Shown here: positions 26,895-64,000 of the stretch, piece by piece | Layout: each line of letters opens with the position of its first letter | How positions within the stretch are numbered: the first letter of the stretch is position 1 | Assembly: GCF_020921035.1 (NCBI RefSeq) | Contig: NC_063157.1 | Coordinates: 2,666,001-2,730,000, forward strand | DNA length: 64,000 nt | Direction of reading: 5' to 3' | From: Rhodamnia argentea | Lineage: Eukaryota; Streptophyta; Magnoliopsida; Myrtales; Myrtaceae | Made by a program: the position numbers and the translations under genes | Notes under the pieces: generated by a model | What the model was told of the DNA's origin: nothing | The model's input: only the letters and a program-made list of their open reading frames with translations | Databases searched by the model: none

Positions 26895-27544
26895 GTTTAA
26901 ATATTATTGAAAACCTCAAATTGATACATTTATAATAATTTTACCTCAAATTTTTTTTTACCACAAAATCTCGAACGGTACACACATGTGACAAACTTAC
27001 CTCAAATTATTTTTTTATCATAAAAAATTTCAAACTTGTACGTTTGTGACAAATTTATCCCAAATTGGTATATTTGTGATAAATTTACCCTCCGTTAATT
27101 TTCGTTACATTTTACCATCAACTTGTTCAGTCGGATAACACATAGCAGTTGATGAATGTATCAATTTGGCGTTTTTACCCTCTGTTTGTCATAAATACAT
27201 TAATTTGAAATTTTTTGTGGTATTAATCCAATTTAACGGGAACTAATGAAAGGTAAATTTGTCACATGTGTATTATTTTGAAATTTTTGGTGGTAAAAAA
27301 ATTTAGTTTGGGGAAAATTTATCGTAAGGTGTACCAATTTGAAATTTTTGGTGGTCAAAAAAATAATTTGGGGTAAATTTATCATATGTGTATCAATTTG
27401 AGGTTTTTTGTGGTTAAAAAATAATTTGAGGTAAATTTATTGCGGGTGTACCAATTCGGGGGTTTTTTGTGATTGAAAAAATAATTCGGGAAAATTTATC
27501 TCAAATATATCAATTTGGAATTTTTGTGGTATTAATCCTTAAAC
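26895..27544. mobile_element. Inverted-repeat MITE built of internal tandem units, 650 bp
   Basis: The left arm (GTTTAAATATTATTG..., CCTCAAATTGATAC) is mirrored by the right end (...GGTATTAATCCTTAAAC). The right arm (about 27245-27535) holds four to five degenerate units of roughly 60 bp of the form AATTTGAAATTTTTGGTGGT ... GGGGTAAATTTATC. The left arm holds two to three of the same units in the opposite direction. No coding. No target duplication could be defined. Confidence 0.75.
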
Positions 27545-51988: not shown

Positions 51989-52283
51989 AGGTGCGGGGAG
52001 GAGACATTATTGAGTCGCTTTCTTTATTCTGTACACGTTTATCATGGTGTTCAGTTTTAAATACAGCAGATCTGCATGGTGGTCGGATCGGGATCAGGCT
52101 CGCGGCACCTGGACAGGCCCACTTTTCGAAGATCTTGTCAGCGCACGCTCCGAACAACTCCCGATTTGGTTAGAACTCAAAATCATTGGAGAAAAGAAGA
52201 CTTTTTTAATCATCTACAACGAACGCACTCGTTGGCACGAAAGCAACCGAAATGATAATTGGAAAAAAAAGGGAGTTGGTCAA

Positions 52284-53764
52284 TGTCGCGACCTAAAAAA
52301 ATAAACGAGTTAATTTTCGGGCTAATGGATTATCAGGTTAATTAATTAACTAACCTAACTCGGACTCTCCCAAGTCCATACCAAATCGCAACTTAAGGTT
52401 CAAATAATTAACATGCAATGTGTTTTGAATTTGGAGTCGCCACTAATCATTTTCGGTAGGTTGATTAGAAACCTAAATAAAATAGCGGGAGAAGACTATC
52501 TTATTTCCGCGAACCGGAGATTTTGAATTCGGGGATTTGGTTACGCTAGATTACTCTAACGCCCTTTCGGTACCATTTTCATGAAAAATATTTGATTTGG
52601 CAATTTTGATGGATTTTACTTGAAATTCAAAGATGCAATTTTTTGATTTTTTCTTCTTTTTTATGGGGATGTAAAACATTGAACTTTGTACGATATACAC
52701 CATGGGTGATTTAGAAAGAAAGAAAACGCAGCCAATCACGAGTATTTACAAAAATAAATTAACAGGTAATAATACTAAATTTTGGGACACGTGACATGTC
52801 TAAAATAAACAAACAAATGTTCACACCAAACGATTACATTTTTGTAGATCGAGATGGAAAGGGTTACCTTCTATTACACAAAATCTTACTCACGTACACG
52901 TTATGGCTTCCTTCAAGATCTCGGAATTGGAAGAACGTGGCTATCGTCGAAAAAAAGGCAAGTAGTGGCGTTGTTGGATGGCGAGAGGCGAAGTACGTGC
53001 CGGGACTCGTCGAAGATGATGCTCGACTAAAACTCTTTTCTTCACTCTCAAATTTTCTCTTACGATTTTTCTCAAGAACTCTCTTTTTTCCTCTCTAAAG
53101 AATTTCTCTCACAAATTCTCTCAATACTCTTCCACTCTAAAACTCTCTCAATTCTCTTTCACTCTCCCCTAAAACTCTTCTCAAGAGCTCTCTTTTATAG
53201 GCAAAGTTCTTCATCCTTCATTCTTCATCTTCATTTCTTCACCTTCCATCTTCATCTTCTCTTCTTCATCTTCATTTCTCCACCTTCCATTTTCATCTTC
53301 TCTTCTTCATCTTCATCTTCTCTTCTTCATCTTCATTTCTCCACCTTCCATTTTCATCTTCCCTTCTTCATCTTCATCTTCTCTTCTTCATCTTCATTTC
53401 TCCACCTTCCATTTTCATCTTCCCTTCTTCATATTCATCTTCTCTTCACCATCTTCCTTTCATTATCTTCTCTTCACCATCTTCCTTTCTCCATCTTCTT
53501 TTGGTATTTGCAATACAAGTCCCTGAAGTTTCAAGTATTTGCACATACGATCCCTCAAGTTTTAAGTATTTGCAATACAGTCCCTGAAGTTTCAAATCTT
53601 CTCGGTGCATTTTTCCATCACGTGCCTAGTCTAGACGCATGCTAAATTAAGTGTTCTACTTGCCAAATTATATGCCAATGCAATGTATGCTCAAAATAAA
53701 TATGTGAGATGATTTTTATAATTTTTATGCAAAAAATAGATTAGTCAAAATTTAGGCGTCAACA
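52284..53764 (-). repeat. 3' LTR of the gypsy element, 1481 bp
   Basis: On the minus strand it begins TGTTGACGCC and ends GGTCGCGACA, so it has TG..CA ends. It contains GGAGTCGCCACTAATC and AGCGGGAGAAGAC type phrases often seen in Tat/Ogre LTRs. The middle (about 53205-53500) is a CTTCATCTT-rich minisatellite with longer units of about 60 bp, and 53500-53600 has a triplicated TATTTGCAATAC ... CCCTGAAGTTT unit. Frames inside are shadows. Confidence 0.75.
53205..53500. repeat. CTTCATCTT minisatellite in the LTR
   Basis: Units such as CTTCATCTTCATTTCTCCAC, followed by CTTCCATTTTCATCTTC, repeat about four to five times with small changes. Confidence 0.85.
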
Positions 53765-53777
53765 GTTGCCCCTCTTT
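53765..53777 (-). promoter_or_regulatory. Polypurine tract next to the 3' LTR
   Basis: On the minus strand AAAGAGGGGCAAC lies directly before the LTR start TGTTGACG, the place and base composition of a plus-strand primer site for reverse transcription. Confidence 0.65.
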
Positions 53778-54127
53778 GAGTGGAGGCTCGTAGAGGTTCC
53801 ACTCAAAGATAAAATTGAATCCTAAATTTTGACAGTGCAAATTATGGATGAACTTTTTGGCGGGAGTTTTAATCCCATTTTTATGAAGTGATGCATGATA
53901 TGTAAGATCGTAAATAACATGTGTCATAATTTCCCTTTTTCATGTTAGAGAAACTCGCACATGGATCGCATACAAGAATACATGTTTTACCAAATTTCTC
54001 GTAAGCTAATGGTTCTATTAATTTCTCAGTTTCTTGCAAACACGAGGACCTTAAGGTATTTGGCCTATCCGTTATCGGAGACTTCTCCCTAATGCGAGAC
54101 AGCACAAGATATATGTGTCCTTCGAGA

Positions 54128-54367
54128 TCACAAGAGCTACGTCATTGTGAGTCAAAAGAAGTGGAATCAAGTTCACAAGAGCTACGTCGTTGTGAGTTGA
54201 TTAAATGTCGAAATCTCCAAGGCATATGTCTTCACGATTCGACAAAGGGGAATCAAAATCATAAGAGCTACGTCGTTATGATTTGGTTTGGATCAAAAAC
54301 ATGGGTGCTTATGTCTTCATGATTTGATAAAGGAGCCGAGAATCATAAGAGCTACGTCGTTATGATT
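54128..54367. repeat. Array of four hairpins with common loop
   Basis: Four inverted repeats share the loop GAGCTACGTCG (GTCA in the first): 54128-54150 and 54173-54195 have stem TCACAA/TTGTGA; 54256-54284 and 54341-54367 have stem AATCATAA/TTATGATT. Stem changes are matched on both sides. The last three lie 84 bp apart, with a shared spacer including ATGTCTTCA. This is inside the retroelement's noncoding 3' region. Confidence 0.85.
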
Positions 54368-56960
54368 TGATAAGATATCAAGATCGCCAGTGCATATGTC
54401 TTCACGACCTGATAGAAGAGGCATATTGCCCGAATTGAACAATATTTGATAGGAGCACCATCGAATGGAATCGATAAGTACAAAAGGGGCATATTGCCTG
54501 AATTGAATCATAACAACTATCATCAGAAGAGTTGTTAATTTGAAAAGGGGTTCAGAAAACTTACTTGGGTTCTCCAAACGATTAATCAAGGAACGAAACA
54601 GATTGCTCGTATCGTACTTGGTAGGCATTTGCCAACAAAACTTGCTCATTCAATAATCCTTGGATGAATTTCGAGACCTTGGGAGGGAACTCGAACATCG
54701 GGAATGTATTACCTATCAAAGAATGTCGGAGGTAACACACACAAACATATTCAACAATGAGTATAATGCAATCACTCATACTATGGTTCATGCATGACCA
54801 TTCTGTCAAGTTCGCATTACCAATTTTGTCCGGGGAGGTTCTCACAGCACGAATACCCCGAATGTGAGCTGAATGGGGGGACTTTCAGTCCGAAAGGGCT
54901 TTCTCTCACTCTCGAGAAAAGCTATTTATCCTGTCTGCAGGATTCAAAAGAAATCGCTCAATCTTTCCATCATCGCATTCGATAAGGATCCGAGTAATCT
55001 CGCAATTGATACGACCGAGCCGATCGGGAGGTCTTGATTAGGACCGTAATGAGAGCTAGGTCAAAGGTTTACAAAGGGGACTCTAGTTGAGTCAAGGTCG
55101 CTGAAATGAATTTCTTCATCATCTGCTCCGGATTTACAAGTCAAGAGCCCCGCAAAAATGAGAGAAATAATCTTGCTCGAACTTCTTCGAGTGACGCTTA
55201 AAATCATTTAACTCTACGTTAACTCAAATGCCCTAATCAGAAGAGACTTTGGAGGGTTATAACGTAGGCTAGGATTGGGGACCGAGGAACGAAAAGGCTC
55301 GTTTTGGCTCGGAAATTAAATGAGAAGGGGCTTGACGTTGGTGATCATCATCGACTAGTCACCGATCTTGGTCTTCCGGAAATGTCTTCGTAAAGAATAC
55401 CATCATTGAATGAGGGATGGTAGTTTTCTACTGAAAATTGCACTTTGCAAACCGATTTCTTGGGGAGTGCTCTTCACAACAAGTGTCCGTCAAGGATTTG
55501 CAAGAGACACAATGCAAACATGTACATGGAATTTACAACTTAACATGCAAAAATGTACATTCAAAATTCAGAAGTACTTTACAAATGAATGTGCATTGGC
55601 CTTACTTTTGGTAGGCACTTTGCTTTTCCTATGCTTGAAATTTTCATATGAGATCAGCCTTTGCTTTTCTTACTCCCGACTCTCGTTTTTCTTTTTTCTT
55701 CTTCTTTTTTTTTTTTTTTTTCGAGAGCGGGCCCTTCTCCTTTAAGCTGAGTTTGCCTCTCCCTTTTTTTTTTTTTTTTTTTTTTTACAATCCCATGATT
55801 TTGAACCAAGAATTACAACAAACATAAATATTTACAAAGAAAAATTATGTAAACATAAAAAATCTAGCATACAAGAAATGAGTCCATTCGGGAACTCTCT
55901 GTTGACCCGACCATCTCCAATTCTAATCCTTGGGAAAATGCTATCTTCGTCTTTGGAATGAGCAAATGGTCACCAACAAGGGTTTAAGAAATGAATTTGC
56001 AGGCTCAAGTGGGCTATGCAAAGAATGAAGTGTATATGATAGAGAAGTGAATGCTCTTCATCATCTTAAGGCACTTGAATTAAAATTCGAGTATAAATGC
56101 AAAGAAACACCTGAAGATTAATGTTAGTCCGAGCAAGAAAATTTCTAACCATTTACCTCATGTTGCTGCTGGAAATAACTCGCCTGGACTCCGGTGTGGG
56201 GTGGTTCTTGACAGGGGTGAAGAAATGAAACCACCGCTCAAAAAGGGGTAATCAATGGATAACCTGTAGTGTTTAGGATAGAGAAATGAACGCCTCCGTC
56301 ACTTCAGTTATCGTACCTTTCATGAGAAAACTCTTTACCTCGGGGAATGCGGAATTTTGCCACCGTTCATCTCGCCTGAAAAAATTGGACGTGTTTGGGA
56401 AATGATTGCCTTTCATCATCCTGTCATGCCCCATTCCATACATTTGATGTATCTTATGTAGTTCATGTTTCTTATTCAGAGTTGGTAAATTAAATACGAG
56501 GAAAGGTCATGCACAAACTATGCAATGTATGAGTGTTTTCGAGCATATAAAATGTAGCAACTTTTTATCTTGGTGCAAGCACGTAAGAAAATTCTTAAGG
56601 GCGTGAATTGTGAGTTGCCCTCGCTCATGCAAATGAGTTGCAAAACTTCATTATCTAGTTTGAGACATGAGATTGTCAAAGGCTCCAGGAATTTCTCATT
56701 TCATTAATTTTTCGGGAGAAGGGATACTTCCCTATCCGGAAAGGCAATGACCCTCGTAAAAATCAAAAGGGAAAGCGTCAATGTACGTTCTCACGTTCTA
56801 AACGAGTTGAAACGATACCGCTTTACCCTTGTACGTATTCCTTGCAAACTTTGAATTGAAAAGATCAATTCATCCGGATCAGATCGTGTGTCCGGGATGT
56901 TATCTCTCCAGGTTCTGTAACCATCTTGGCTGAGTTTCAATCGGCACCGAATCGCGAAGC
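54368..56960. other. Noncoding internal region of the retroelement
   Basis: No open frame with a recognised domain. It has repeated phrases (GGCATATTGCC.GAATTGAA at 54420 and 54488; GAATGAACGCC / GTGAATGCTC with CTTCATCATC around 56040-56420) and two pure T tracts at about 55705-55723 and 55764-55787. It may be structural RNA or degenerate sequence. Confidence 0.5.
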
Positions 56961-56969
56961 AAAAATTTT

Positions 56970-57072
56970 TTTATTAATCTTTGTACATTGATGCCAAATC
57001 CCAGGATTGAACCCGGGATGCCTCGGACCACTGTCATTCCCCCAACCACTAGGCCGTGGTGATGTTGGCGTC
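56970..57072 (-). mobile_element. tRNA-derived SINE-like sequence
   Basis: On the minus strand it has a box A (GGCCTAGTGGTTGGGG, 57055-57040) and a box B (GGTTCAATCC, 57013-57004) spaced about 42 nt apart, followed by a short body and an A-rich tail (AATAAAAAAATTTTTG). This is the RNA polymerase III head of a plant SINE. A working tRNA is unlikely because no clean cloverleaf or acceptor stem is seen. No target duplication was defined. Confidence 0.6.
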
Positions 57073-57553
57073 CATGGTTGGTTCGCTTTTTGCTATATTG
57101 TTCTCAAAACAGTTGGCAATCCCCTGTCGAGAATAAAATAAGCATAATTTAGAGTTTGAAATGACTAAGAGCCAATTGGGATGATACGGAGTTACCCATC
57201 TTTGAGCCCGCTTGGCCTTTTACTCGTATTCTCCCAAGTAAGGCTATTCGGAATTTCTCTTTACGGGCGTTCAGAGGCGTCGTCCACAAATTGATTTGCT
57301 ATAGGCCTAGCTTAGTAAGGAACTTACGCATTTGACAAGAGAGGAGAAAATTCGTCCTTTAACTCTAGGCAAATTCTAGACAGTTAGAAAGTAAAAAAAT
57401 ATCCCACGTAGGGGAACTATACATGGAATTAAAGGAATATTCATGCGAGATTGGTTCCACCTCTCTTGCTGGCCACTTCAACGATCAACCGATTCTGTCT
57501 TGGACTAAACACCAACAATCGTTGTTTGAAGACCCATAACAACTTGCTTCGGA

Positions 57554-58563
57554 TCACAGCTCTAGAGGTCCTTCATTTCCAAACAGGCTCATCAAGGTAG
57601 CAAGCTCATCATCAAAGTAATCTTCTGATTTTTCGAGCAATTGATACTCGAATTGGGCATTGTTACTTGCTAACACCGGTGACAGATTGCTGTGAGCAGT
57701 CTGACTCCTTAAGCTTGCGCCTCCGTCGTTGCTCGGGAACTTGTAGGGATGATCAATTGGTCTGCTACTAGAACCACCAGCGGAAGGTTGGTATGACCTG
57801 TATTCTTGATTGGGAAGTGGCCGGGTACCTTTTGCTCTGTAGGTTTTCCCGGAATTGATCTTCCAGCCAACTCGGGTCCGGTCGCCTTGGTCCCAAGCTG
57901 CATCGTGCTTCCTCGCCTTATCTCTAACCCTTTGAAGGTGATTTGTGACACTTTGCATGGTGAGTCCGTCTATATTCATCATTTTATGTACAGCCGGTGG
58001 TCGTGCTGAATTGATTCCTAGCTGTCGAACCGCCTCAATGAATATAGAATGAAGCTTGGCGGACCAAAGGGGCCTTTTCTTTTGGACAAAATCGTCGTCG
58101 TCGCCTTGGTCGTGGTTTTTTTGTACAAGTAATTGCTTCCTTACAAGCATGCTGCCAAATGTTTTGGAGCACTTGAACGCAGACCGGCTTCGCAGACGTC
58201 TCGAGCACCATGCGATATGGCCCTCGTTATGAACTCGCCGATCATTACTTGCCGATACTACGATGACCCGTATGTCCAACTCATAATCAATGATCTTTAA
58301 GAGATCGAAACCGTCCATGTCGATCCCTACGACGGCCGTGTGACGACGATGTCAAAATCATATTTGTACTGCCTCGGCACTTGTAAGGCATCCGTTGCTT
58401 TCGCATTAGCAAAAACCCCGTACATGCAACTTCTCAAGATAGCAACGAGGATTGAGAGGGAAACGGGGTTGCCATCAATGACCATGACTCGCAGATCTTC
58501 GGGATAGGAAGGTTCCCATACTTCCGCCTGGAATGAACGTGTTTTTCTTTTAAAACCTTCCAT
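57554..58563 (-). pseudogene. Type-B response regulator-like gene, receiver decayed
   Basis: ATG 58563 opens MEGFKRKTRSF, then a receiver start LRVMVIDGNPVSLSIL and NAKATDAL. The frame ends at about 58329 (TRPS*). A second frame, ATG 58318 to 57554 (254 codons), resumes at the receiver motif MDGFDLLK. The next stretch is read out of the ancestral frame: the alternative frame gives KPVCVQVLQNIWQHA. The acidic pair reads DG instead of DD and the phospho-acceptor aspartate is lost. The GARP/Myb DNA-binding domain (about residues 80-134 of the second frame; KKRPLWSAKLHSIFIEAV, then NHLQRVRDK) is intact. Type-B regulators carry cytokinin signals to DNA in the nucleus. No intron is seen in the GARP region, suggesting a retrocopy. 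A short DNA-binding protein without receiver could still be made from ATG 58318. Confidence 0.78.
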
Positions 58564-59333
58564 ATGTAGATCAAAAATGGCTGTTTCGACCGTAGATCGA
58601 GCTTTAGATGTTCTCGAGACTTGCAAAACAATCTGCCCGAAAATCACAAAAGTGATGGTGGTCTTTCGTGACGAGTTCTGGTGGTCATTTATAAACTTTT
58701 TTCTGATCCGTTAGTCTCGCATATAGGTTCTCGCTTTTTCTACGAAAGAGGACAACTTTTTCTCTCCTTTCCGGTCTTAGTGCCTTGGATCCATTTCGTA
58801 ATAACTCTTGCCTCTCACTCAATCTGTCATCTTTTTCCTTTTCTGATATGTAGGAGCCCTCAAATCTTTTCGCTTTCTCTATGAACGAGGCGCTTATTTC
58901 CTTCCTCGATCTTTTCGGTTCCCCCTACGAACGAGGCGCTTATTTCCTTCCTCGGATCTTTTCACTTCCTCCCGAGGCGGTTATTTCCTCGAATCTTTTT
59001 GCTTTCTCTAATAACGAGGCAGCTATTTTTTCTCAAATCTTTTTGCATCTATCTATGTGAAGGCTTTTAATGCTTTTCCTTTCGGCGTTCAATCAAATCC
59101 GACAAAGAATTCACGCATTTAAGCATGATGATATTTGCGGATAGTAATCGTTCTTTGCCCCTTGATTAACTCTAGGCGTAAAAGGAAGAATGTCTCACAT
59201 GGGGACTTTGTAACAAACAGTACATTCATTCACGCATGTCTCTACTTCTCTTGAGAATTCATAAGGGTAGCTAGTAATGCTCAAAAGAGTGATATTTTGA
59301 AAGCCCATAATAAAAACTCAAGCTTCATGTAGG
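58564..59333. other. Spacer between the response-regulator-like and HD-Zip-like frames
   Basis: Noncoding DNA with a recurring ACGAGGCGCTTATTTCCTTC phrase (about 58887 and 58931, and looser copies to 59040). No gene. Confidence 0.55.
58880..59045. repeat. Short tandem repeat GAACGAGGCGCTTATTTCC
   Basis: Three or four imperfect copies of TATGAACGAGGCGCTTATTT, then CCTTCCTCGATCTTTTC, spaced about 45 bp. Confidence 0.75.
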
Positions 59334-60029
59334 CTACGTATTCGGAGTTTCATCGGTGTTGAATTGGCCGATCGTGACATCGTGGAAACTCCAATTGTAG
59401 TGATGCATGTCACTTCCCTCGAAGGGCATCGGTTCCCGCTCCGCAAGGCCGACATTCTGGGATGTATCCCCAACGAAATCCGATTGTGCGAGAACTTGCT
59501 CGGGAGGATGAATCGATAAATGAGCATTTTCAATGCTCGGATGTGGCTCATCAAGGAACATGCCACCAAAGGTGATGGGGTTGCTGCAGACATGGCAAAT
59601 AGCGATGTTAAGAGCATCCCTATACCTCTTGATCTCTGCTCGAAGCTCTTCATTTTCTTCCTTTAGAGACGCAAGTTCATGACTTTCACTTCGAACCTTC
59701 ACTCGAGCCCGCTTGTTTTGAAACCAAAACCTGACCTTCAAGGGCTCCATTCCTAGCTTCCGGCTCAACTCATTTTTTCGTTTCCCGTTCACGTAAGGGC
59801 ACTCCTTAAAGGCAGCTTCGAGCTCTTTGATTTGATGGTTTCTTTTCGGGGGTTGACTACGGCTGCTGCTGCTGCTATTGTTGTTGCTGTTATCGAGATC
59901 TTGAACTTCACCGCCAAGGGAGTTGGGTTTTACGGCTTCAGCGCTGGATCCGGCCTCGAAATTCAGCAGTTCATTCTCGGGGATGTCTAGGTTGGTTGCC
60001 TCCAGTAAGTGCTGGTAGCCTCCAAACAT
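59334..60029 (-). CDS. HD-Zip IV-like homeodomain protein without START domain
   Basis: A 231-residue intact single-exon frame with an ATG (MFGGYQHLLEATN). After an Asn/Ser run it has a homeodomain at about 59-113 (HQIKELEAAFKECPY, then KVRFWFQNKRARVK), with the recognition helix Trp, Phe, Asn and Arg kept. A leucine zipper-like coil follows (about 114-142; LKEENEELRAEIKRYRDAL), then CHVC, as in the CPNCGG loop of class IV zippers. Full class IV proteins are 700-800 residues with START and SAD domains; these are absent. The frame is unbroken across usual intron sites, suggesting a retrocopy. Class IV factors act in the nucleus on epidermal genes. It lies in sense inside the gypsy element and may bind DNA or act as a dominant-negative dimer partner; that is inference. 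Confidence 0.85.
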   Translation of the reverse strand: MFGGYQHLLEATNLDIPENELLNFEAGSSAEAVKPNSLGGEVQDLDNSNNNSSSSSRSQPPKRNHQIKELEAAFKECPYVNGKRKNELSRKLGMEPLKVRFWFQNKRARVKVRSESHELASLKEENEELRAEIKRYRDALNIAICHVCSNPITFGGMFLDEPHPSIENAHLSIHPPEQVLAQSDFVGDTSQNVGLAEREPMPFEGSDMHHYNWSFHDVTIGQFNTDETPNT

Positions 60030-60521: not shown

Positions 60522-61255
60522 ATGGCCTCCCTCCCCGCACGCGTCTTCTCGGCTGAAGTTTTGGCCAAATGGGAGAAACTTTATAATCTCTTAGGCCAGG
60601 GCTACTCTTATATAGCCAACCATCCGGAGGTCGAAACCGAAATCCGTCTCATGTTTACGGATATGGACACCGTTTCTATTCAAGGTACCGAGTTAGAAAA
60701 GGAATATAGGATCTTCCCTACCCTCTTCACTAACTTCCCGGAGGCTTACCATCTTGCTCATCAAGATGTTACTTTGGCTCATCTTGTGAGAGCTCGCTAT
60801 CGGGATCGGTCGGACAGACTTGGTGTTGGCCGGTCTTGTAGCCGACAATCATAAGAAGGCCCTTGACTATGGTAATGAACAAGTCTCGCCGCTGATTCGT
60901 GAGAGGGGGAACTTGGTGGAACGTTTGGCCATGTCCCGGACCATCTTCGAGCGCGATCCGCTCGATATCGCTTTTGAAATTCCAATGCACATGGCTGGAA
61001 GAAAGGCCGGACGATCCGACCCTGGATATAGCCCGCGGGAGAATGCCGATCCATGACTTGGAATCTGCTGCCGAGTATCACGAGGACAGGGTGGCCAAGC
61101 TTAAAGAGAAATGTGAGCTCCTCCTCTTTAAGCTGGCGGATCTCGATTCTCGAAGCGATCGGTGTAGGCGGAGCATCAACTGTATGGAGAGTCAGTTAAA
61201 CTCCTTTGTGATGCTAATTAGGGCTCGGTTTGGCTTTACGTTCCCACCCCGATGA
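60522..61255 (+). pseudogene. Frameshifted ORF of unknown function, antisense in the retroelement
   Basis: ATG 60522 opens a 110-codon frame (MASLPARVFSAEVLAKW, then LMFTDMDTVS). The sense continues in a second frame (about 60820-61056; VADNHKKALDYGNEQVSPL) and a third (to 61255; HDLESAAEYHEDRVAKLKEK, then CELLLFKLADLDSRS). The last part looks like a coiled coil. Two frame changes are therefore needed to join one protein of about 240 residues. I recognise no named domain. Tat-lineage elements such as Grande carry an extra antisense ORF between pol and the 3' LTR; the position and strand fit that pattern. It starts about 490 bp from, and divergent to, the HD-Zip-like gene. Confidence 0.6.
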
Positions 61256-61544: not shown

Positions 61545-62976
61545 TCAAGTATAATATTTTTTTACAGCATCATAATTGACTGGATTGGTAAAGACACGAC
61601 CATCCATCTCGGCTAGAATCAAAGCACCACCAGGGAGCACCTTCTTTACTATATATGGACCACCATAGTTTGGAGCGAACTTCCCTTCCGGGAGTGGGAC
61701 CATTGGCAACAATTTTCGCAAGACCAGGTTATTGATCTGAAAATATCGAGGCCGAACTTTTTTGTTGAATGAATTAGCAACCCTCTGCTGATAACACTGG
61801 CCATGACATATAACCTTAAGTCTCTTTTCATCGATCAGATTCAATTGGCTCGCCCTCTGTTGGATCCATTCAGCTTCCGTCAAGATAGCTTGAGACAAGA
61901 TACGTAAGGAAGGAATTTCCACTTCAACCGGTAGAACAGCCTCCATTCCATATACAAGAGAATACGGGGTTGCCCCCGTAGATGTCCGGATCGATGTCCG
62001 ATACGCCATAAGTGCAAATGGCAACCTCTCATGCCAATCGCGATAATTTTCAGCCGTCTTCGCTAAGATTTTCTTGATGTTCTTATTGGCGGCTTCTACT
62101 GCTCCATTCATCTCGAGGACGATATGGGGAAGAGTTCAGATGCTTGATCTTGAATTCTTTGAACAATTCGTCCATTAGCTTGTTGTTCAAGTTTGAGCCA
62201 TTGTCGGTGATTATGGCTTCAGGTGAACCATATCGAGCGATGATATCTCGACGGATAAATTTCACGATATTTCGTGCTGTGACCGCTAAATAAGATGCGG
62301 CTTCGATTCATTTAGAGAAATAGTCAATTGCTACCAAGATGAATCGATGCCCATTGGATGCTTTAGGATTGATAGGGCTGATAACATCAATGTCCCACAT
62401 AGAAAACGGCCATGGTTCGGATAATCGATGCAACTCGTTCGGAGAGACATTAATCTTGTCACCATGAATCTGACATTTGTGACAACTCCGGACATGTTGA
62501 ACCGGGTTGGAAGTTCCATCATACTTTTCGAAGTCGGGCATCTTGAACTTTTCCGGCACAATGATCTTTGAAAAGACAGATGTGTCGACCCGGGGTATGT
62601 TGTGAGTCCCCTCGACCTCTCGGATCCTCTGTTCCATTTGGGCCAATAGCTTGGCCGTATCACCATTCAATCCGGGGGCCACGGGGCTGGCTTGAGGGAT
62701 TGGGACTACGGGCGGCGTGCTCGAGCTCATGCCTGTGATGATCACATCCTCTACCGGCATTGTCGGATAGGGAGTAGCTTCCAAGGCTTTACCGAAGTTG
62801 TCCGTAGGAGGAACTAGAGCAGGAAGCGGCGGGATGGCGGCGGATGATTGAAGTTTGGCGGTGAAGGCGGCCATAATTTCTTCCATCTTTCGGGACATCA
62901 TCCCTTCAAAGCGCTCGATCAAGGAGCCAAGTTTCTCGTCTAGGGCAAGACCGACGATAGCGTTGATGTCGGACAT
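61545..62976 (-). pseudogene. Retroelement gag-integrase remnant (gypsy, Tat-like)
   Basis: ATG 62976 begins a gag N-terminal part (MSDINAIVGLALDEKLG, ... MPDFEKYDGTSNP). Right after it, near 62510, the frame enters integrase at VRSCHKCQIHGD (zinc-finger end), so protease, reverse transcriptase and RNase H have been deleted. The core carries the first catalytic Asp (MWDIDVISP), the second in ITDNGSN and a later Glu (EAANKN). A TGA at 62308-62310 replaces a Trp after DYFSK, and a one-base shift lies near 62110 (PYRPRDE). The last frame ends at 61545 after a GPF/Y-like stretch (YGGPYIVKKV). Not functional as it stands. Confidence 0.85.
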
Positions 62977-62999
62977 CCTCTTTGCGACCGATCGAGTAA

Positions 63000-64000
63000 T
63001 GTGTAGAGGATTCGTGACAAATTACCCGTACGTGAGAACAAACCCAAAATGAGTATAGGGAGAAAGAATAGCGAGCCGGCCCATGACATCCCTCTAGACT
63101 CAAACGAACAAAGTGATTATGGCCAAAGGATTGAAACATGTAATTTTCAGTTTGTCCGCTTTTACGAAAAAATTCGTATTAATCCGTACGTTGATCAAAA
63201 CATGTCCAAATTTTACGAGCTTATAGTTGAGAAGGTGATGAACAACTTTTATGTTGGCCAATCAGACTAGAAATGCACGGATCAAATCAGTTTAATGTGT
63301 CTCTCCAAAACAATCACGTTCAGAAAACTGTTATAACCGCATGTTGTTGAAAAAACGAAGGGCCATCTTAAATTATGAATTTAATTCTGAAATTTTGCAA
63401 GATATTAGTTGAAACATAGGTCTACAACTTTCGTGTTTGGCACTTACTCAAAGCTCGATCGTAGAATTTAGTAAAAATCGCACAACAGGAATAAGCCAAA
63501 TCAAAATTGAGGACAACTGATGAAATTGTAAAAGCTACGGAAGCAAAGTGCGAAATTGAAAATAAGACAATGAAACTTCTAAACAATCAACCTAAACCAT
63601 GGACCGGCCCAAAATAAAAATGAGATAACAGGGTACAAGAGACAAGAAATTACCTCTCATACGAAAAAAATGCCAATCACAAAGACATGCGCATGAATTG
63701 TGAGTTTAAATCTTATTCTATCTATCCAAAAGGCTTTTGTAAAGTGAATTGATGAACGAAACGACATGTCGCAGCCTCGCGCGCAATCATCATGACTAGT
63801 CGCAACCTCGCGTACAATAGTCATGACTAGTCGGGTCCAATCACTTCGGCTTGGTTCGGTCGACAAGGGCAATTCTCATGCATCGTAGCCTCACGTGTAT
63901 GAGAACGACCCTTGAGCCATTTTTTTGAAAAAAATTTCGGGATCCAGATGGGATAACCTTTAGCGAAGCCTTACCGCCAAGGTTAAAGGACCATCTAAAT
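63000..64000. other. Leader region of the retroelement, no LTR reached
   Basis: Upstream of gag on the minus strand. No LTR end (GGTCGCGACA on the minus strand) or primer-binding site was found, so the 5' LTR must lie beyond 64000. A diverged direct repeat (TCATGACTAGTCG) occurs at about 63790 and 63822. Confidence 0.5.
63756..63834. repeat. Imperfect tandem repeat
   Basis: GTCGCAGCCTCGCGCGCAAT...CATGACTAGT is followed by GTCGCAACCTCGCGTACAAT...CATGACTAGT, a unit of about 35 bp, twice. Confidence 0.75.

Follow-up and report, generated by a model that had tools for sequence, protein, structure and literature searches.

Can a long terminal repeat (LTR) retrotransposon take transcription-factor genes from its host and keep them as a part of its own equipment? 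This question is raised by a 64,000-nucleotide stretch of the Rhodamnia argentea genome (C8:2666001-2730000, hereafter the window, within which positions are given), where a homeodomain-leucine zipper IV (HD-Zip IV)-like open reading frame (ORF) and a type-B response-regulator (RR)-like gene lie side by side in a gypsy element. A preliminary description of the locus had read the two as host genes captured by the element. With the window and the complete 346,658,060-bp assembly (74 contigs) as search space, we find that the locus belongs to a high-copy Ty3/gypsy element of the Tat clade, of which it is a young copy derived by deletion. The content of the window, with P450 genes and transcription factors of plant type, is that of plant DNA. 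We assign a probability of roughly 60% to the reading that the two genes encode trans-acting DNA-binding regulators of the element itself, kept as a pair by this Tat-type family.

The window copy is a complete LTR retrotransposon of 13,511 bp, both LTRs and the target site duplication (TSD) having been read. Its 3′ LTR (TGTTGACGCC...GGTCGCGACA, 1481 bp) occupies 52284..53764 (-). The preliminary description had left room for this LTR being solo, with no partner past 64000; the 5′ LTR was found within the 8 kb that follow, at C8:2730317-2731794, corresponding to 64317-65794. The two LTRs agree in 1474/1481 alignment columns (4 mismatches, 3 gap positions), and the TSD GTCAA at 52279..52283 has its twin at 65795-65799, after the 5′ LTR. 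A polypurine tract plus 3′ LTR had been placed at 52284-53777; both are present, but the LTR ends at 53764, not at 53777, and is adjoined by a purine-rich tract at 53765..53778 (-). With substitution rates of 1.3e-8 and 7e-9 per site per year, ages of ~0.1-0.3 million years follow for the LTR pairs of three copies, the window copy among them; these are upper estimates because many of the LTR differences resemble sequencing error.

The gene pair is not confined to the window. A 2476-bp query covering it gave 391 first-look candidates in the genome, and all 40 candidates that were scored run from query position 12 or lower to the query end at 89-100% identity. In the 19 further copies fetched, which are the best-scoring ones and not a random sample, homeodomain (HD) gene, RR gene and 3′ region are collinear without exception (19/19); the 3′ LTR is near-full in 17/19, partial in L018 and absent from the stretch of L022. 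Protein searches with the homeodomain of PROTODERMAL FACTOR 2 (PDF2; best 150 of 352 matches) and the GARP domain of ARR1 (best 150 of 334) yielded at least 79 linked HD-GARP pairs, all on the same strand with the HD first, at a spacing of 1374-1924 bp (median 1523), and no other HD-GARP arrangement within 4 kb among the best 150 matches of each search. Together with the copies from the 2476-bp query, the pair occupies at least 105 distinct places. Linkage is still held among homeodomains just 48-62% identical to PDF2, and 8/79 pairs possess stop-free frames of at least 230 amino acids (aa) around the HD and at least 335 aa around the GARP domain. Chance is excluded by the E-values and by the recurrence of the pair. 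Moreover, matching 5-bp TSDs flank 3/3 copies in which both LTRs were read (GTCAA for the window copy, CGTTG and ACATC for the others), so that the check once proposed for the locus, recurrence of the pair between LTRs with target duplications, came out positive. Capture inside a gypsy element is thus supported by the partner LTR and 5-bp TSD of the window copy and by the position of the pair inside LTR elements elsewhere.

The HD-Zip IV-like ORF (59334..60029, -) encodes 231 aa and is open and intronless. Pfam recognizes its homeodomain (59697..59840, -) with E = 1.1e-15, a leucine zipper follows, and its best match in the PDB is the HD-Zip IV protein PDF2 (9lpe; 3.4e-24, residues 30-141), which the ORF of the divergent copy L034 matches at 2.9e-28. 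No START domain was found by Pfam in any element ORF scanned, and none of the 24 matches of a genome-wide START search lies on C8, the contig of the window. Hence, the original account of this ORF as intact, intronless and deprived of START stands. In the window copy, the homeodomain departs from PDF2 at residues of the recognition helix and its vicinity, and its DNA targets may therefore differ.

The RR-like gene spans 57554..58647 (-), with the N-terminal half of the receiver at 58327-58647 in a different frame from the C-terminal half and the GARP domain, which share the ORF 57554-58318. The GARP (Myb-like) DNA-binding domain at 57926..58072 (-) has no introns and was recognized by its match to ARR1 (4e-15 for the GARP/Myb region of ORF 58318..57554, -); the Pfam Myb match of this ORF, 1.4e-4, is under the Pfam cut-off. 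As assembled, the receiver of the window copy is frame-broken. An intact GARP domain with a broken receiver, as first described, is thus what the window copy and its close sisters show as assembled, but it is not a trait of the family, and the statement that both genes are trimmed to their DNA-binding part applies to the HD-Zip gene and not to the RR gene: five divergent copies retain a full-length receiver-like domain. Indeed, Pfam detects Response_reg in 4/4 divergent RR ORFs scanned. In L034, it does so at 1.2e-13 (Myb, 2.3e-5), the alignment with the ARR1 receiver covers the full length of the domain, and the whole protein matches ARR1 at 1.7e-41. At the position that we take to be the phospho-acceptor Asp, located via the ARR1 alignment, 5/5 RR ORFs carry Ala; the Lys of the KP motif is retained in 5/5, and residues of the acidic pocket are altered as well. 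Judged by its sequence, the receiver of the element would be a pseudo-receiver.

The frame breaks themselves call for caution. Indels of L010-L028 relative to the window copy are enriched 4.5x at CAG and 4.1x at CTG, the next 3-mer reaching 2.25x. Likewise, in the same-element LTR pairs of three copies, 10/18 difference clusters contain CAG/CTG, although these triplets and the 4 nt around them account for only 4-9% of the LTR. Such differences are probably base-calling errors at methylated CHG sites. Since the frame breaks cluster at CAG/CTG, the frameshifts of the window copy and its sisters are not to be taken at face value, and it is doubtful that the broken receiver represents true decay, assembly error probably accounting for a good part of it. 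Assembly error at CHG sites could also mislead gene calls across the whole genome.

Where do the two genes come from? They belong to a module of ~5 kb between the integrase and the 3′ untranslated region that comprises two sense ORFs and one antisense ORF. In a host type-B RR-like gene of the same genome, the GARP domain is split by an intron of ~1 kb (parts 85% and 89% identical to ARR1), and in a host HD-Zip IV-like gene the homeodomain-zipper region upstream of START lies in three open pieces, with boundaries set by eye. In this comparison, based on one host gene of each kind, the host domains are split by introns and the element ORFs are continuous, from which it follows that spliced mRNA was captured. 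The four best intronless GARP matches were considered as donors and could not be established as such; the one that was read resembles, on visual inspection, a host gene of the LUX type. Searches of viral contigs with each protein found no relatives.

The two genes also share a C-terminal tail. The tail and 3′ flank of the HD gene (59041..59415, -) and those of the RR gene (57218..57668, -) are homologous, being reciprocal best matches in a scan of the window; their alignment scores 82 in the window copy (shuffles 42.1 ± 7.1) and 114 in L034 (shuffles 37.3 ± 6.4), values reached by 0/300 shuffles in either case. For the HD tail of L033, matches are found in the RR tails of L034 and the window copy; against the RR tail of L033 itself the score is not significant (41; 131/300 shuffles reach it). 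A short acidic, DDEL-like stretch is visible by eye in both tails of L034. For the 5′ flanks, the score of 81 stays below the largest shuffle (86) and is not significant, and we claim homology for the 3′ flanks alone. The second cassette probably arose by tandem duplication of the 3′ end of the first.

Have the frames of the pair been maintained? RR frames are open in the divergent copies L034 (336 aa), L037 (336 aa), L038 (340 aa), L039 (336 aa) and L033 (331 aa), and HD frames in L038, L039 and L034 (273 aa in the last, which runs beyond the usual stop). Open frames were at least one reason for choosing L034 and L037-L039, and L033 was taken as the copy most like PDF2; the HD frame of L033 is split by a frameshift. 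We simulated stops with the element's own noncoding mutation spectrum (2000 runs per pair). For the RR gene, 8.1 stops are expected without selection between L034 and L033 and 7.8 between L038 and L033, and 0/2000 simulations remained stop-free in either case; for the HD gene, 3.6 stops are expected between the window copy and L034, with 34/2000 simulations stop-free. These results support long-term frame maintenance in some lineages. At the level of residues, low ratios of non-synonymous to synonymous substitution (dN/dS) were obtained in a few comparisons, for instance for the HD core between the window copy and L027 (4/400 simulations), the RR gene between L037 and L038 (8/400) and the receiver between L038 and L033 (13/400). 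Furthermore, variable sites in the HD core of 20 close copies are distributed 9/8/18 over the codon positions (third position 18/35, p=0.02); in the HD N- and C-tails of the close copies no third-position bias was seen. Altogether, residue-level constraint on the HD and RR genes is weakly to moderately supported.

What, then, would the pair do? That the family captured the genes in intronless form, has been active until recently and has kept the two linked, with frames maintained between some lineages, is shown; DNA binding by the products and regulation in trans are inferred. Lacking START as a control domain, the HD-Zip protein would bind DNA as a dimer, and the lack of a phospho-acceptor would leave the GARP domain of the RR protein blind to the cytokinin phosphorelay. 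Most likely, both products would regulate transcription of the element family in trans, or couple the family to an expression state of the host. The window copy, devoid of most of gag-pol, would probably be mobilized by a relative that possesses it. One may tentatively go further and picture a two-protein transcription switch assembled from host parts, in which a START-free HD-Zip dimer and a phospho-blind GARP pseudo-receiver would control the whole family in trans, deletion copies included, direct its expression to epidermis and meristem and let it escape the cytokinin phosphorelay; we consider this elaborate version less likely than not.

The least probable alternative is that host retrogenes beside a solo LTR merely look captured, as in a nested or chimeric locus; the LTR pair and TSD of the window element, the two further copies with TSDs and the recurrence at 105 distinct places rule out a solo LTR, a nested gene or a chimera, and we give this reading practically no weight. 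A good deal more serious, albeit in our view unlikely, is that the pair is a passenger: read-through or template switching would have captured it a single time, and it would since have multiplied along with the element to no benefit of the latter. Several observations fit such a passenger and weigh against retention of the pair for a function. Among the 20 close copies as assembled, a whole RR frame is found in 0/20 and a whole HD frame (230-231 aa) in 5/20, and closer HD pairs often stay stop-free by chance (window copy and L038, 345/2000 simulations; window copy and L039, 1056/2000). The dN/dS values of 0.30-0.48 for the HD and 0.40-0.77 for the RR gene lie near the neutral expectation of 0.58-0.71, derived from the element's transition-rich noncoding spectrum, in most comparisons without significance. 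That of the RR gene between L038 and L039 is even above this expectation, as are, more clearly, those of the GARP domain in the same pair (389/400 simulations at or below) and of the receiver between L034 and L039 (378/400). The comparison of dN/dS across copies that had been suggested thus gave a few low values, some RR values involving L039 above the neutral expectation and mostly values close to it, and after nulls with the observed and the noncoding spectra we rejected dN/dS as sole proof of selection. Nor do the genes of close copies diverge less than the spacer (K of 0.020-0.034 versus 0.018), the low divergence of the spacer being explained in part because the copies were picked by a query containing it. 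A passenger would, however, hardly be expected to remain linked at the divergence from PDF2 reported above, to keep RR frames of 336-340 aa in four divergent copies and of 331 aa in a fifth, and to survive stop-free where 0/2000 simulations do, that is, in L033 compared with L034 and with L038.

The LTRs add a further point against retention that a passenger would equally explain. Of the L1 box TAAATGYA and GATWCG, which we take to be the target motifs of HD-Zip IV and GARP proteins, there is no occurrence in the 3′ LTR of the window or in 17 other LTRs; across the target motifs of the two families, most are missing from these 18 LTRs and none is enriched. Window-wide, the L1 box occurs 4 times versus 5.2 expected. 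The scarcity of the motifs in the LTRs argues against a simple model of LTR activation. The proteins may have changed in specificity, may bind outside the LTRs or may act on genes of the host. The last of these can be extended to a reading in which host genes are their main targets and they compete, for instance, with HD-Zip IV factors of the epidermis and with type-B regulators of the cytokinin response; a changed cell state would then benefit the element. HD-Zip IV and type-B RR families are developmental regulators, as this reading would have it, and the DNA-binding parts persist while the control domains are lost or disabled; the differences from PDF2 in the region of the recognition helix imply, on the other hand, that the targets may not be the same, and we regard a mainly host-directed role as rather improbable. 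Regulation of the element by its own pair of DNA-binding proteins hence remains the reading that we favor.

The element that carries the pair can be placed by its coding content. In the window copy, the integrase (61545..62307, -) is broken by a stop and a frameshift, and an N-terminal gag part (62308..62976, -) is fused straight to its start, the rest of gag-pol being internally deleted; the remnant previously assigned to integrase over 61545-62976 is therefore integrase in one part and gag in the other. Among four copies read upstream, L029 has the same gag-pol deletion as the window copy and L031 another, and L030 and L032 keep the middle. The latter two encode gag, RVT_1, RVT_3 and rve in separate ORFs (Pfam; rve of L030 below the cut-off), with RNase H clear in L030 and weak in L032 (0.0076); the order is RVT_1, RT_RNaseH, RVT_3, rve in L030 and RVT_1, RVT_3, rve in L032, and a protease was not identified in these domain scans. 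An extra RNase H between RNase H and integrase marks the Tat elements of angiosperms, Ogre and Retand (PMC6317226), and we find this order here; our clade assignment is based on it. An antisense extra ORF (aORF) lies at 60522..61255 (+), frameshifted in the window copy and uninterrupted over 243 aa in copy L030 (L030:6774-7505), with no Pfam domain above cut-off and no TRP28 (PF04195). TRP28 is present in 97% of the Retand clusters in Vicient 2025 (PMC11963269); of the Retand hallmark, an aORF with TRP28, we thus find the aORF and do not detect TRP28. A plant mobile domain ORF occurs in 57% of Ogre elements (PMC6317226). Two ORFs matching plant mobile domain / DUF7745 were seen in the 5′ part of L031 (L031:4641-5635, -), in 1/4 copies read upstream.

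The pair is not shared by all relatives. In element L041 the integrase is 86% identical to that of the window copy, and the frame through this match stays open over 1145 aa. The 3′ region of L041, of which 5 kb downstream were read, resumes at a point matching ~56436 of the window and contains no match to aORF, HD, RR or window LTR and no ORF of 110 aa or more. The ~5-kb module was thus either gained by the pair-bearing family or lost by that of L041. Without a transcription-factor module, L041 is a useful outgroup. Genome-wide, 42 of the best 150 integrase matches (3080 candidates) are followed downstream by one of the 79 pairs, at least 16/47 at 92% identity or more and at least 2/27 below 86%; these counts are lower bounds, with the 79 pairs as the only markers.

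Extra ORFs are common in plant LTR elements, mostly without recognizable origin and with an open role (PMC7264820, PMC11963269). In Retand/Tat elements, they are typical between pol and 3′ LTR, and the sense ORFs there encode no known domain (PMC11963269). The present family resembles these in its long region between pol and 3′ LTR, its antisense ORF, its tandem repeats and its non-autonomous members, yet its sense ORFs encode HD-Zip IV and RR/GARP proteins and TRP28 was not detected. Likewise, Ty3/gypsy elements of Phalaenopsis have fixed a host-like extra gene, an AlkB m6A demethylase proposed to help the element, but they hold one enzyme and not a linked pair of DNA-binding regulators (PMC9289625). 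The captured-domain screen of 121 angiosperm genomes in the same work reports a B3 DNA-binding domain in Aegilops (PMC9289625), and its main text, the supplements lying outside our scope, makes no mention of 'homeo' or 'response regulator'. In maize Bs1 and other gene transductions, parts of host genes also lie within an LTR element, mostly in the sense direction (PMC13317346, PMC7264820); Bs1 combines segments from three genes in one chimera (PMC13317346), whereas here there are two separate ORFs. Finally, additional ORFs derived from transduction occur in one or few copies (PMC7264820), in contrast to the pair described here with its at least 105 places.

Compared with host PDF2 and ARR1, the element proteins have kept homeodomain plus zipper and receiver plus GARP; they differ by having no introns in their genes, no START, Ala in place of the phospho-Asp and a shared C-tail. 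In the open-licence PMC literature, supplements being outside scope, we found no report of an HD-Zip IV and RR pair in an LTR element. While capture of host genes by LTR elements is known (reviewed in PMC7264820 and PMC13317346), a linked regulator pair fixed in a large family is the new part. Its origin is plain, namely two named host transcription-factor families, linked in at least 105 places of a 347-Mb genome. Since the binding sites of such proteins are directly assayable, the long-proposed regulation of elements by extra ORFs becomes testable. Surveys of HD-Zip or response-regulator genes in this species could also mistake element copies for host genes.

The remaining parts of the window element are a long 3′ internal non-coding region (53765..57553, -) with an 85-bp tandem array at 54173-54407, a tandem repeat of 46 bp within the HD-RR spacer (58864..58989, -) and a 5′ untranslated internal region (62977..64000, -) that runs on to the 5′ LTR at 64317. 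In the 3′ region, a SINE (short interspersed nuclear element)-like stretch with sequences resembling tRNA promoter boxes was noticed by eye at 56990-57060; an ARAGORN scan of the window found no tRNA.

The element lies, with its edge at 52284, ~360 bp upstream of the first ATG (51921) of a P450 ORF that shares its orientation, and the insertion may alter the promoter of this neighboring gene. Two P450 paralogues in the window are without the insertion, and the BLAST matches of these two loci stop at 52283. With BLAST, the sequence outside the 5′ LTR found no counterpart at the paralogous sites; by local alignment, it matches both sites over ~45 bp starting at the insertion point, with scores of 43 and 45 versus largest shuffles of 29 and 34. 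The P450 paralogues thus show the empty site. Elsewhere in the window, a cluster of repeats ~150-250 bp in size, both direct and inverted, lies at 26910-27530.

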